Assembly (NCBI GenBank): GCA_015152555.1 | Contig: SUTS01000001.1 | Span: 62,001-126,000, forward strand | Direction of reading: 5' to 3' | Length of the DNA: 64,000 bases | From: Cyanobacteria bacterium SIG26 | GTDB lineage: Bacteria; Cyanobacteriota; Vampirovibrionia; Gastranaerophilales; Gastranaerophilaceae | Shown: piece after piece, positions 5,794 through 61,174 of the stretch | Layout: each line of letters opens with the position of its first letter | Position numbering within the stretch: position 1 is the first letter of the stretch | Translations under genes and position numbers: made by a program | Notes under the pieces: generated by a model | Told to the model about the DNA's origin: nothing | The model's database searches: none | The model's input: the letters and a program-made list of their open reading frames with translations, nothing else

Positions 5794-6882
5794 ATGAGCA
5801 ATAATGATTTCTATATAGAAGACTTTTTGAGACAAGCAGTTTCTGTAGGTGCATCTGACGCACACATTTGCGAAGGAGAAAGGCCTGCGATAAGAGTTTC
5901 CGGACAAATTATGCGAATTAATTTACCACCACTTACGGCGGAAGATATAGAATTTGTTATAAGAACAGTTGCTCCGCCTCACCTTAGAGACAGAATTACA
6001 CGTTTTTTTGACATCGACTTTTCATACGAAATTCCGGGTTGCTCAAGATTTCGTATAAACATGAGTCGCCAACTTGGTAAAACCGCAATGGTAATTCGTG
6101 CAATTCCTTATAAAATTAAGACATTCAAAGAATTAGATTTACCTGAATCCTTAGAAGAATTTGCATCATTTAATAATGGAGTTGTTCTTATCACAGGCCC
6201 AACAGGTTCAGGAAAATCTACAACTATCGCATCTTTAATTGATCATATTAATGCAACTGCATCAAAGCATATTGTTACAATAGAAGATCCTGTTGAATTT
6301 ATTTTTACAAATAAAAAATCTATAGTATCACAACGTCAACTTTTGATTGATACCCCATCTTTTTCAGACGGGGTAAAATACGCACTAAGGCAAGACCCTG
6401 ACGTTATTTTTATCGGTGAAATCAGAGACCGTGAAACTGTAGAATCTGCACTTAAAGCCGCAGAAACAGGTCACCTTGTTGTATCAACGATTCACACAAA
6501 CGACTCTGTCCAAACGGTTGCAAGAATTATCAACTTATTTGAACCTAGCGAAAGACCGTTTATCAGAAACCAAATAGCAAACACACTACGAGGCACAATT
6601 TCTCAAAAACTTGTACCGACAGTGGAAGGCTCAACAAGATGTCCGGCAACCGAAATTCTTGTTGTTACACCAACGGTTAAAGATTTTATCCAAAAAGATG
6701 AACTGGAACAAATATATGAACTTGTGAAAAAAGGTTCGTTTAATAACATGACCACAATGAATATGTCACTATTTAAACTCTATTCAGAAGGGAAAATTTC
6801 ACAAGAAACAGCACTTGCATACTCTGATCATAAATCAGAACTTGAACAACTAATGAGAGGGGTATACCACGGTAGTCGGTAA
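5794..6882 (+). CDS. pilT: PilT-type pilus retraction ATPase
   Basis: This 362-aa hexameric ATPase of the secretion-ATPase superfamily would depolymerise type IV pili at the inner-membrane base. It has an N-terminal PAS-like domain (SDAHICEGERPAIRVSG, about 21-37). The Walker A GPTGSGKST is at 135-143, Walker B VIFIGEIRD at 204-212, and the His box STIHTND at 231-237. The C-terminal helical part (SLFKLYSEGKIS) resembles PilT. The length of ~350 residues and lack of the N-terminal extension of PilB favour PilT over PilB. It has its own promoter and is followed 10 bp later by recO. Prepilin genes occur elsewhere in the window, so a pilus system is plausible. Confidence 0.9.
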   Translation: MSNNDFYIEDFLRQAVSVGASDAHICEGERPAIRVSGQIMRINLPPLTAEDIEFVIRTVAPPHLRDRITRFFDIDFSYEIPGCSRFRINMSRQLGKTAMVIRAIPYKIKTFKELDLPESLEEFASFNNGVVLITGPTGSGKSTTIASLIDHINATASKHIVTIEDPVEFIFTNKKSIVSQRQLLIDTPSFSDGVKYALRQDPDVIFIGEIRDRETVESALKAAETGHLVVSTIHTNDSVQTVARIINLFEPSERPFIRNQIANTLRGTISQKLVPTVEGSTRCPATEILVVTPTVKDFIQKDELEQIYELVKKGSFNNMTTMNMSLFKLYSEGKISQETALAYSDHKSELEQLMRGVYHGSR

Positions 6883-23458: not shown

Positions 23459-24496
23459 TTATTTACCACTACAACTTTTAGCCTTATTCCAACCTAATTT
23501 TTCGGGGCATCTCAAATAATCCATATTCTTATTTTCTATAACCCAGGCAGTACAAGCACCATGATTACCTTTGTTCTTTAAGCAATTATTAAATTCTTCA
23601 CCTTCTGAATTGCTACTAACTAAAGCAGGATAACCATTTGCCGCAATACCATCCCGATATCCCCTAAACTCAAAAACATCCACACCTTTACGATTTGGTT
23701 TTCCTTTTCCATTCAAATCCACCCACAAAAGCGAACAATTATTATAATGATTTAAATATCCATTAGTAGGGCCAGCATTTACCGAAGCGGAACAAATATG
23801 ATAAGAACCTCCGACTGATTTATTTGCCTTTCGCGTTTGAACACCAATAACAGTACCGTCTATCAATACAATTGCAGGATATTGATAAGTCATTGCCGGC
23901 GCACATTTATTAGCTTGAGAACAATTCTGAACAACCTTTAATTGCTTTGACAACTCTGCGATATAAAAATCACGGCTATCATCAGCCCAAGTATGCAATT
24001 CCCCGTGTTCTGCAACCATACTTCGCGTTGCTTGTTGCAAAAGAGCATACACTCGTTGTAGTTTTATGATATTTTGTCGCTCAGTATATTTTTGCAAAAG
24101 ATTAGGAATAGTAAGCGCCGCAACAATTCCGATTACGCCGATTACGATTAATACTTCGACCAATGTAAAAGCAGCTTTTTTCATAAATAAGTTATCAAAC
24201 CCTCTCCTGTCACCGCGGGGGTAAATATTAGGCACCTTTCCGCCCCGTTCAACACCCGTCATTCTGAGGGGAGGGTAAATATTACTACCAACCGTGGTAT
24301 AGTTTGTAAAACCAATGTGCTCCGCAGGGCGGGAATATATTGGCATCTTTTCGCCTCGTTCGACCCTCGTCATTCTGAGGGCTTTAGCCCGAAGAATCTC
24401 ATAAAATTTATCACATTGAAGAATAGCCAAAAACCTCGCCACAAGACTATTAGAGGTTACCCCTCCTAAAATGTTGCTATATCTACGTTTCGCCAT
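23459..24496 (-). CDS. Type IV prepilin-like protein with 109-residue repeat-derived leader
   Basis: This 345-aa protein contains a prepilin signature (KKAA|FTLVEVLIVIGVIGIVAALTI) whose predicted cleavage follows A109. Ala replaces the usual Gly at -1. The mature part has an Asp/Asn loop (DLNGKGKPNRKG) and a Cys-containing tail (ACTAW, DYLRCPEKLG) shared with the prepilin at 60004-60930. An ATG at 24184 would give the usual short leader (MKKAA) but has no ribosome-binding site. The ATG at 24496 is preceded by GGAGGG at ideal spacing, so I annotate the long form. Codons 10-100 read through a dispersed repeat. Whether the long leader is processed is unknown. Confidence 0.75.
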   Translation of the reverse strand: MAKRRYSNILGGVTSNSLVARFLAILQCDKFYEILRAKALRMTRVERGEKMPIYSRPAEHIGFTNYTTVGSNIYPPLRMTGVERGGKVPNIYPRGDRRGFDNLFMKKAAFTLVEVLIVIGVIGIVAALTIPNLLQKYTERQNIIKLQRVYALLQQATRSMVAEHGELHTWADDSRDFYIAELSKQLKVVQNCSQANKCAPAMTYQYPAIVLIDGTVIGVQTRKANKSVGGSYHICSASVNAGPTNGYLNHYNNCSLLWVDLNGKGKPNRKGVDVFEFRGYRDGIAANGYPALVSSNSEGEEFNNCLKNKGNHGACTAWVIENKNMDYLRCPEKLGWNKAKSCSGK

Positions 24497-45097: not shown

Positions 45098-45883
45098 TTA
45101 TTTTGTTGAAGTTAATACATATTTTGCAGCGTTTGTTGCTGGTTCTACTGTTGCATCGTGGAATACAACAGGGAAAATATCTGTTAAGTTAGTCGCATTA
45201 TTTTTAACCGCACAAGGTGTTTCTGGAGTAAGTGCAGCTGTACCATCACCAGAACAAGAAACTTCTTTATTAGGTAAAGTTACACCGTTTACATCGATAA
45301 AACCAATACAACCATTTAAACCGCCGGCACCCGTAATAGCACCAGTCGTTTCATCCTTTGTCCCAGCTTTTAACGTATCAGTATTTACAACTTGACCAAG
45401 TTGTAATGTACAACCGCCTGCCATAGCTGAAGGGAATCCAACAACTGAACCATCTGCTAAAGTGTAAACATTATAATCATCTGCAGTATTAAGAGTTAGA
45501 GCTTTACCACCTTCAGCATTATTAAATTTATATGCATTACTTGCAGAATCTTTCAAGTTTGAAGCTGCACCAATATATGAATGACCAGTCAATGTACCGT
45601 TTAATAAAGCACACATAGTCAAATCACTTGTTGGATCTTCTTTTGCTGCATTTGCTACAGTACCATTACAAGCAGCATTAAGACCTGCATAGTCAAAATC
45701 GTATTGTGCTTGAGCCATCAAACCTGCTTGGTTCAATGTTGATAATGTTTTCTTAAATTGTGAACGGAATTTTGCACCGTTTGTGTTAGCTACCAATGTT
45801 GGAATTGTCATTGCTGCTACAACACCAATAATACCTAAAGTAATCAATACTTCTGCCAAAGTAAAACCGAATCTTTTTGTCAT
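45098..45883 (-). CDS. Type IV prepilin-like protein, short leader
   Basis: This 261-aa protein has a classic prepilin N-terminus: leader MTKRFG, cleavage after Gly, then FTLAEVLITLGIIGVVAAMTI as the N-terminal helix. The globular part is Ala/Gly/Asn/Thr-rich with several Cys (for example ACNG, MCAL, GGCTLQ) and the loop DVNGVTLPN, which the other two prepilins in the window share in form. The ATG at 45883 is chosen because AAAGGA lies ~10 bp upstream; longer in-frame starts lack a ribosome-binding site. It is divergent from the XRE regulator gene 186 bp away, which may control it. The abundance of small residues suits a major pilin. Confidence 0.85.
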   Translation of the reverse strand: MTKRFGFTLAEVLITLGIIGVVAAMTIPTLVANTNGAKFRSQFKKTLSTLNQAGLMAQAQYDFDYAGLNAACNGTVANAAKEDPTSDLTMCALLNGTLTGHSYIGAASNLKDSASNAYKFNNAEGGKALTLNTADDYNVYTLADGSVVGFPSAMAGGCTLQLGQVVNTDTLKAGTKDETTGAITGAGGLNGCIGFIDVNGVTLPNKEVSCSGDGTAALTPETPCAVKNNATNLTDIFPVVFHDATVEPATNAAKYVLTSTK

Positions 45884-46069
45884 ACTTTTGAAATCCTTTC
45901 TTTTCATAAAGTTCTTATAACATACCAACTTATTAATTAATTCTTGGGGATTAATAACAAGTTTATATATACATGTTGTCACATTGTGCCAAATTTGTCA
46001 AGTGTAATTATTCTAATGTGCCATTTTTTAATACAAAAATATGAGATAATTTATTATTAAGGGGTATTT

Positions 46070-46402
46070 ATGGGGAATTTAAGCAAACAATTAGGGCTAA
46101 GAATAAAAGAGTTAAGAAAAGTCAAAAAGCTTACACAAACGCAATTGGCTGAACGAATTGGGATGGAGACAACAAACCTTTGTAAATTAGAAAATGGTGG
46201 TCAATTACCTAAAGAAGAAAATATCGAAAAAATCGCAAAAGTCCTTGATGTAGAAATTAAAGATTTGTTTACATTTGGTCATCTTAAACAAGGTTTAGAA
46301 TTAAGAAAAGAATTATTAGATATCATAAAAAAAGCTACCGACAACGAATTAGAATTATATTATCGATTGATTATCGCGACAAAAGAAACCGGCAGAATAT
46401 AG
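46070..46402 (+). CDS. XRE-family helix-turn-helix regulator
   Basis: This 110-aa protein has an N-terminal HTH_3 domain (about 8-63: LGLRIKELRKVKKLTQTQLA, then NLCKLENGGQLPKEENIEKI). A C-terminal helical tail (65-110) probably forms the dimer. It is a DNA-binding repressor or activator. An AAGGGG ribosome-binding site precedes the ATG. It is divergent from the prepilin gene, so it may regulate it. No toxin or phage gene is adjacent. Confidence 0.88.
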   Translation: MGNLSKQLGLRIKELRKVKKLTQTQLAERIGMETTNLCKLENGGQLPKEENIEKIAKVLDVEIKDLFTFGHLKQGLELRKELLDIIKKATDNELELYYRLIIATKETGRI

Positions 46403-46442
46403 TTATTTTATTAGGTATAACAGACTTTTAACAACCACACGC

Positions 46443-46473
46443 CATTCTGTATCAAGCACGGAATGACGAATGG
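46443..46473. repeat. Palindromic CGTATCAAG-type repeat, copy 1
   Basis: CATTCTGTATCAAGCACGG is followed by GAATGACGAATGG. The same sequence, slightly changed, is at 56223-56247 (ATTCCGT-ATCAAGT-ACGGAAT, a perfect hairpin). Confidence 0.7.
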
Positions 46474-46728
46474 TGGCATAACAAGGGATAACGTAAAACT
46501 ACCTCTTCCTAGGAGAGGTAGGGCAACGTCATCCTGAGCCGGTGTGAGCGGTGCTGTTTTTTGCGAACACCGAAGAAGCGAAGGATCTCTTATATTCCTA
46601 CCTTCATCATTCTGAACGGGGAAAATGTATTGGTACTAATGACCACCAACCTATAGTCATTCTGAGTGAAACGAAGAACCTCTTATTATTCCTTTCTATA
46701 GGATTTTATGGGATTCTTCGGGCTAAAG

Positions 46729-46905
46729 CCCTCAGAATGACAAGGGTCGAGCAAGGCGGAAAGATACAAATATATTTACCCCCCTCAGAATGACGAGGGT
46801 CGAGCGAGGCGAGAAGATACAAATTTATTTACCCCCCTCAAAATGACGAGGGTCGAGCAAGGCGGAAAGATACAAATATATTTACCCCCTCAGAATGACG
46901 ATGCG
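46729..46905 (+). repeat. Tandem array of a 53-bp CATTCTGAG-type unit
   Basis: Three near-identical units start at 46729, 46782 and 46835, with a truncated fourth at 46887. Each begins CCTCAGAATGACGAGGGTCG, continues with a GAGCRAGGCG motif and ends in AT-rich AGATACAAATATATTTACC. Unit-to-unit differences are a few bases. Single copies of the same unit lie at 24.2-24.4 kb (reverse) and 60.8 kb. Confidence 0.9.
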
Positions 46906-47003
46906 TTATACTTGTGGGAAGAATGCCCAATATTTACCCTCCCCCCCCATTTACAATTACAAAAAAATAGTTTAAAATGAACTCAAAAGAAAGAGGGTAT
47001 TAT

Positions 47004-60003: not shown

Positions 60004-60930
60004 TCATTGCTGCTTTTTAGCTTGAGCGCACGAGAATGGACCGTTAACTCCAAGTTTTTCTCTGCAATATAAATAATCTAGATTATTGTGTTTCAACGCC
60101 CAATATGTACAAGCTGTCGCGGTATTCCCCTCAAGACAATAGCTTTTTGTTCTATCATAATACTGTCCAGAAGGATATAAAACAGCTTTTTTATTATGAG
60201 ACCAAGCATTTGATTGATCTCCTATTGAAAATACAAAAGCATCTTTCCCTAAAGAATTAGGCAGTGTTTTACCATTAACATCAACACCAATTGTGGCATA
60301 AACACCCCAATTTTTATTATTGTTCATATTGTCAGCATAAATATAAAACCTTACACCATTTGGTAAAATCCCGGCACGCCCATGATTTGGTCCTGGATAA
60401 CTTTTTCTTACACTTAAGTTATTATAGCTCGAATACCATCCAGTATTTCCACAGACAGTTAACAAACTTGCACGCCCACAATCCTGCGCTAGTTTTAAAA
60501 ATTGTGTAATACGTCTAAAATACAACTCGTCATGATCATAAATAGTTTCAGAAGAACCCCAAAGAGAGATTTCACCATACTCTTTCTGAGCAAGTTCAAG
60601 TGCATTAGAAAATAAAGAATAAGTCTGGCGTAACCTATTAATAGTAACTCTATCACTAATTTTATTTATTAAAGTAGGCAACGTCATCGCTGCAACTATA
60701 CCGATAATACCAAGAGTAATTAACACCTCTGCTAGCGTAAAAGCAACTCTTTTTCTAACAACGTCATTCTGAGCGCAACCTAAGAGATTCTTCGGGCTAA
60801 AGCCCTCAGGATGACGAAAGCGAAGAATCTCATAAAACTTACAATTTTGGAGAGTTGCCAAAAATCTTAGCACAAGGCTATTAGAGGTTACCCACCCCAA
60901 AAAACACTTACTATTACTGAACTTTACCAT
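60004..60930 (-). CDS. Type IV prepilin-like protein with 63-residue repeat-derived leader
   Basis: This 308-aa protein has a prepilin core (KRVA|FTLAEVLITLGIIGIVAAMTL) with Ala at -1. No in-frame ATG, GTG or TTG lies close to the cleavage site; the nearest credible start is the ATG at 60930, preceded by an excellent AAGGGGAG. The leader of 63 residues is translated from a dispersed repeat. The mature part holds DVNGKTLPNSLGKDAFVF and a Cys tail (TACTYW, DYLYCREKLG) shared with the prepilin at 23459-24496. The leaders also share TSNSLVxRFLAxLQ. A minor pilin or pseudopilin is likely. Confidence 0.75.
   Translation of the reverse strand: MVKFSNSKCFLGWVTSNSLVLRFLATLQNCKFYEILRFRHPEGFSPKNLLGCAQNDVVRKRVAFTLAEVLITLGIIGIVAAMTLPTLINKISDRVTINRLRQTYSLFSNALELAQKEYGEISLWGSSETIYDHDELYFRRITQFLKLAQDCGRASLLTVCGNTGWYSSYNNLSVRKSYPGPNHGRAGILPNGVRFYIYADNMNNNKNWGVYATIGVDVNGKTLPNSLGKDAFVFSIGDQSNAWSHNKKAVLYPSGQYYDRTKSYCLEGNTATACTYWALKHNNLDYLYCREKLGVNGPFSCAQAKKQQ
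60762..60893 (+). repeat. Dispersed CATTCTGAG-type repeat, copy C
   Basis: CGTCATTCTGAG (60762-60773) and CTCAGGATGACG (60805-60816) form an inverted repeat with one mismatch around a GGGCTAAAGCCC palindrome. The adjacent block 60855-60893 (GCCAAAAA ... GGTTACCC) matches copy A. The copy begins directly at the prepilin core and ends in its leader. Confidence 0.85.
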
Positions 60931-61174
60931 ATTTTACTCCCCTTTTCGTGTTGCAAACTTCCTTTATAATTATAACTTATTTTGCAAATTCCCACAAGGG
61001 AGTATGTTATGGCAACAATGAAATTTGGCAAAACTAACCACCTTCCCGGATAGACTCGAGCGAGTATGCACCAGTTTTATGCAAGACGCGTTTCAGGAAC
61101 ATACAAATTGTACAAGAGAAATATTTTATTTATTACCGGCTTGTCAAACCAACGCATTTTAAAACATCAACTCA

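Follow-up and report, generated by a model that had tools for sequence, protein, structure and literature searches.

Prepilin genes of a family-level Gastranaerophilales lineage carry a tract of G residues between their own start codon and the prepilin cleavage motif, and we consider it very probable that these tracts are slipped-strand contingency loci that switch prepilin translation and that were captured with most of the genes OFF in the assemblies. The two members found in the window, i.e., the whole stretch of 64,000 nucleotides analyzed here, would then be locked-ON derivatives of such switches.

The gene that drew attention to the system is a minus-strand open reading frame from 60930 to 60004, which reads MVKFSNSKCFLGWVTSNSLVLRFLATLQNCKFYEILRFRHPEGFSPKNLLGCAQNDVVRKRVA followed by the core FTLAEV... 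(Table 1). The view of the initial annotation that the ATG at 60930 is the only well-placed start was borne out, since it alone among the candidates has a Shine-Dalgarno-like sequence, with a TATAAT-like sequence further upstream of AAGGGGAG; in-frame starts lie 63 (ATG, with the ribosome-binding site [RBS]), 53 (TTG), 44 (GTG), and 40 (TTG) codons before FTLAEV, with none nearer, again as had been claimed. The palindromic repeat described as abutting the prepilin core does so only approximately, the gap to the F64 codon (60741) being 20 bases. The motif TSNSLVxRFLAxLQ is indeed common to this prepilin and a paralogue at 24.5 kb, where it reads TSNSLVARFLAILQ as against TSNSLVLRFLATLQ at 60 kb. 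At 5 codons from its core, the paralogue has an internal ATG that is not preceded by an RBS, and an Rfam search around its leader returned no match. Both window genes are devoid of an uninterrupted long tract, having instead GGGGTGGG and GGAGGGG; as these interrupted tracts are in frame, we class the two genes as fixed-ON derivatives rather than as switches. At the 60-kb copy, 10 nt (TTGGGGTGGG) bring the ATG into frame, and this copy is thus locked ON.

Table 1. Positions of features of the two prepilin genes in the window
Feature	Position	Strand	Basis or remark
Prepilin gene, 63-residue leader, 308 codons	60004..60930	-	Open frame from ATG 60930
Ribosome-binding region AAGGGGAG, 5' of ATG 60930	60931..60944	-	Sequence
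GGGGTGGG, interrupted tract where paralogues have G10-G12	60891..60898	-	Leader DNA alignment
TSNSLVLRFLATLQ, leader peptide common to 12 genome copies	60847..60888	-	Sequence comparison
55-bp palindromic repeat, CGTCATCCTGAG...CTCAGAATGACG	60762..60816	.	Translated in frame within leader
Mature pilin, F64 onward, 245 residues	60007..60741	-	Modelled helix 3-55 and beta-rich head, pLDDT 85.5
Paralogous prepilin, 345 aa from ATG 24496	23459..24496	-	Leader of 109 residues, two repeat segments
GGAGGGG, interrupted tract of 24.5-kb copy, 7 nt, in frame	24460..24466	-	
Repeat end CGTCATTCTGAG, leader of 24.5-kb copy	24257..24268	+	
Repeat end CGTCATTCTGAG, leader of 24.5-kb copy	24368..24379	+	

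The leader is present 12 times in this Candidatus Gastranaerophilales genome (which belongs to the genus of Zag_111), and every copy is fused in frame to a prepilin. Hence, the earlier proposal of a shared coding leader stands, although it overlooked both the 12-copy family and the poly-G tract between the start codon and the prepilin. A DNA alignment reveals a constant order of modules: a TATAAT-like promoter, GGAGG, ATG, about 30 nt (MVKRRYSNxL), the G tract, TA-ACC TCT AAT AG (TSNSLV...), usually the repeat, and the prepilin. Uninterrupted runs of G10 to G12 are seen in 9 of the 12 copies; in the C14 copy, a contig break intervenes between tract and start codon, and the start-bearing half of the leader sits at the end of contig C16. 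Interrupted tracts characterize the other three, namely, the C1 copy, which is out of frame, and both window genes. Among the 11 copies whose start is complete, counting from the ATG puts 5 in frame and 6 out, the out-of-frame reading GGT AAC CTC TAA meeting a stop just past the tract. Beyond the tract, the leaders vary from 48 to 119 codons, yet all 12 are stop-free and in frame with the prepilin, supporting the claim that this is not a chance open frame. Further, 8 of the 12 copies have lost the start codon at the usual prepilin start (MKKAAFTL), where they have GTT, ATT, GTC, or other codons; together with the several lengths, all in frame and stop-free, this indicates that the leader is coding. 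The proposed test for purifying selection on the leader was weakly positive, with a pN/pS of 0.64 in frame compared with 0.75 and 1.15 for the two alternative frames and 0.36 for the prepilin helix, a weak signal that is expected if the frame is the main constraint. We rejected this codon test as proof of selection on the leader; the constraint seems limited to frame and openness. Duplication of the genes together with their leaders, as suggested previously, fits the pairwise identity of 69 to 82% across promoter, start, and leader versus 42% in the C-terminal parts. The leader sequence is absent from 45 other genomes of the genus, where the same architecture occurs with other sequences. Two more prepilins of the window genome, L029 (G000:C11:102864) and L028 (C17:26890), have a degenerate tract in the same position (TTAGGGGAAGGGGTAGCCTCT and TTTGGAGAGCTAACCTCT, respectively) and no palindromic repeat; these are likely to be locked forms.

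Long mononucleotide tracts in the 5' coding region occur in this family far above chance. The window genome has 15 runs of at least nine Gs against 0.29 expected, with 10 in prepilin leaders (counting the C14 and C16 contig ends apart) and 1 in the gene of a Pmp-like secreted protein, the Gs being on the coding strand. A 14-G run (L133; G000:C16:4304-4317) has neither an RBS-start nor a prepilin nearby. Of the 130 tracts with at least nine Gs in ten genomes from the genus, 71 lie ahead of a prepilin and another 32 come after a start codon in a different or truncated gene. Most relatives have 9 to 13 consecutive Gs at this site. Sister species display the same architecture, mostly repeat-free, before whole prepilin repertoires; thus, 26 prepilins of Zag_111 (G007) take the form ATGCTAAAATTCAATCATAGCTTGAAAAAC-G11-CACCGTTAAAGC...FTLAEV or close variants and contain no repeat. 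A frame-independent pattern scan over 84,980 species genomes matched at least 118 stretches, and among the 80 matches listed almost every title names Gastranaerophilales, Melainabacteria, Cyanobacteria, or uncultured bacterium. Within the order, the pattern was found in 57 of 241 genomes, all of one family and from 11 of 50 genera, counts that are too low in that the long leaders of the window genome escape the pattern; a reversed-pattern control gave zero matches in the same 241 genomes. The contig of one G10 prepilin locus (L337) bears the title Muribaculaceae; it may belong to Gastranaerophilales and have been mis-binned. Many contigs of G014, G064, and G034 end soon after the start and G tract, indicating that assemblies break at these leaders. 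The same start and G tract also precede secreted proteins with signal-like TLKALS... N termini (L130 [G000:C9:14660]; L155, L156, and L158 [G011]; L198, L203, and L204 [G059]), several of which weakly match Chlamydia Pmp repeats; the locus of this kind in the window genome is out of frame (G11).

For a census of phases, we took the 187 loci with one unambiguous RBS-ATG frame, the start being assigned by the RBS rule. Tract length sets the frame in these loci, with 21 in frame (11%) and 166 out of frame (94 at +1 and 72 at +2), and the out-of-frame lengths truncate the product, a stop being reached at a median of 3 codons beyond the tract; the start codon lies at a median of 29 nt before it. 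The in-frame deficit relative to one third has a binomial p of 5e-12, which is too small a value because paralogous loci are not independent, but the effect persists without the two largest genome sets (19 of 146; p = 3e-8). This excess of out-of-frame loci would also be compatible with transcriptional slippage or decaying genes. Tract lengths, as read from consensus assemblies of metagenomic origin (MAGs) in which long tracts may be miscalled, are G11 in 19 of 26 cases in Zag_111, with none of the 26 ON, and G9 in 12 of 15 cases in the genome G001, each majority being one step from the in-frame G10. Paralogues with near-identical flanks have unequal tracts, ranging from G9 to G12 in Zag_111 and from G10 to G12 in G034. 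Where contigs C16 and C14 overlap at their ends, within the same leader, one has G11 and the other G12; this points to a mixed population at a single locus, though they may be two loci.

By analogy with established systems of this architecture, we infer that slipped-strand mispairing is at work here. Each gene would comprise its own start codon, about 10 codons, the G tract, a short or long linker, and the cleavage motif FTLAEV, and replication slippage would add or remove Gs in the tract. One in three length classes would link the start to the prepilin frame (ON), while the other two would run into a stop a few codons past the tract (OFF). Most cells would have the majority of the family switched OFF. 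When a gene is ON, the entire leader, whatever its sequence, would be translated and should then be cut away by the prepilin peptidase, and such a cleaved leader could tolerate in-frame insertions of dispersed palindromic repeats. Both window genes would be members of this family that became fixed ON through interrupted in-frame tracts.

The out-of-frame tracts could instead be productive, with RNA polymerase slippage or ribosomal frameshifting on the G run yielding a constant low amount of full-length prepilin and no heritable switching. Tracts of 9 to 12 Gs may suffice for transcript slippage, and the predominance of one length and phase in single genomes such as Zag_111 and G001 would agree with this. 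We nevertheless regard it as unlikely, given that both +1 and +2 offsets are common, such that no single shift direction works, that in-frame alleles exist too, and that near-identical paralogues vary in tract length. A fixed programmed frameshift is disfavored by the same occurrence of both offsets.

Internal start codons raise another alternative to slipped-strand switching, namely, that translation begins downstream of the tract (at MKKAAFTL or MPNIYPRGD), leaving the upstream part as an untranslated or regulatory leader. Four copies in the window genome (L080, L083, L085, and L087) do retain an ATG five codons upstream of the core, and most leaders there have an internal ATG with a weak RBS about 22 codons before it, which could permit frame-independent expression. 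As a general account this is quite improbable: the five-codon ATG is lost in the 8 copies noted above, no start codon lies within 40 codons of the core in the 60-kb gene, and 160 of the 187 clade loci have no ATG, GTG, or TTG between tract and core. Even harder to sustain is the proposal that most of the out-of-frame genes are pseudogenes in decay after duplication, with the tracts as neutral debris. It would account for about 89% of the assembled loci being out of frame and for the C1 copy, whose tract is interrupted and out of frame; against this, the frames downstream of the tract are mostly open over 200 to 350 codons and conserve cysteines and glycines, the frame defect is located at the tract itself, and such long tracts are not produced by chance.

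The palindromic repeat is most likely a passenger held in frame. It forms an imperfect hairpin (-23.6 kcal/mol), and its 12-mer has 10 matches in the window with at most one mismatch (0.09 expected) and 43 exact matches genome-wide. Twenty-four stretches in the genome resemble the element, 10 inside prepilin leaders and 14 outside. Six repeat ends in both orientations are arrayed at 46527-46900 of the window, within the intergenic region 46402-46977 and near an ordinary prepilin (45098-45982). The idea that the element repeatedly inserts at prepilin 5' ends, put forward in the initial annotation, proved secondary, as repeat-free leaders exist here and in most relatives and other repeats occur elsewhere, including a different palindromic repeat in a G001 leader. 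That the element is itself the actor, supplying start and leader, is the least probable of all the readings: the repeat does occur in most leaders of this genome, and other palindromic repeats lie in frame in sister-species leaders, but the start, the tract, and TSNSLV are all upstream of it, repeat-free leaders predominate elsewhere, and over half of the element-like stretches are outside leaders. As a source of the start codon, the repeat is ruled out by the same upstream position of start and tract. In-frame repeats would be tolerated, given that the leader is expected to come off together with the prepilin signal.

The prepilin identity of the window proteins is supported by matches above the cut-off to PF07963 (N_methyl) in both, at residues 63-83 in the 60-kb protein according to a profile search. 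Residues F1, T2, L3, and E5 are invariant in 38 sequences. Residue -1 is Ala rather than Gly in both window copies, and across the clade this position is occupied by Gly, Ala, or others; since Gly is the commonest residue at this position of prepilins but no absolute rule, cleavage is still probable with Ala. A Foldseek search of the model of the mature 60-kb pilin against the PDB found no significant match. The genome has four matches over the cut-off to the pilus ATPase family PF00437 and a single weak match, below the cut-off, to the prepilin peptidase family PF01478. A T2SSE/PilT-like ATPase is encoded at 5815-6642 of the window (C12:67815-68642; E = 2e-47).

Neisseria, Campylobacter, and Chlamydia are well-known hosts of poly-G contingency loci. 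Slipped-strand mispairing is the established explanation for the tracts of Neisseria pilC1 (PMC5231331), Neisseria opa (PMC3960869), and Chlamydia CT166 (PMC4514472). In pilC1, which encodes a type IV pilus tip adhesin, slippage in a G9/G10 coding tract truncates the protein (PMC5231331). The prepilin genes resemble it in having poly-G inside the coding sequence of a pilus gene; unlike the one tip protein of pilC1, they number dozens, place the tract some 30 nt past the start codon, ahead of the cleavage motif, and belong to nonphotosynthetic cyanobacterial relatives. The opa genes, with CTCTT repeats in the leader-peptide region (PMC3960869), are likewise a surface-protein repertoire whose members are each switched by a repeat within the 5' region that encodes the leader, but their repeats are pentamers and their products outer membrane proteins rather than prepilins. 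In the coding poly-G of CT166, most reads are OFF and one G from the ON length, and the pmp family is hypothesized to behave similarly (PMC4514472). This recalls the majority state seen here, also one G off ON, and the Pmp-like proteins that here, too, lie behind G tracts, even though Chlamydia is of an unrelated phylum and its loci involve no pilins. For the repeat, the nearest parallel is with the Rickettsia palindromic elements (RPEs), which are dispersed and found in frame inside protein genes (reviewed in PMC10969869). The window repeat works like an RPE in being a hairpin, with 24 similar stretches, that lies in frame in leaders; we claim no membership in that group, and unlike RPEs, the in-frame copies seen here sit in a leader that is expected to be cleaved off. 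The open literature that we searched holds no description of poly-G contingency loci in Gastranaerophilales or of prepilin repertoires under such switches.

Taking these findings together, we lean toward the view that genomes of this family-level lineage encode up to dozens of prepilins, a repertoire biased toward OFF in which every gene has its own poly-G switch, and that each cell shows a small random subset of pilins. If so, the in-frame depletion (11% versus 33%) would reflect selection for having few pilins ON simultaneously. Ordinary gene callers would misplace or drop the start of most such genes. Gut metagenome reads already available allow the ON fraction to be measured directly, which makes this proposed and so far unnoticed surface-variation system testable; if our proposal is true, these gut bacteria would vary their pili cell by cell.
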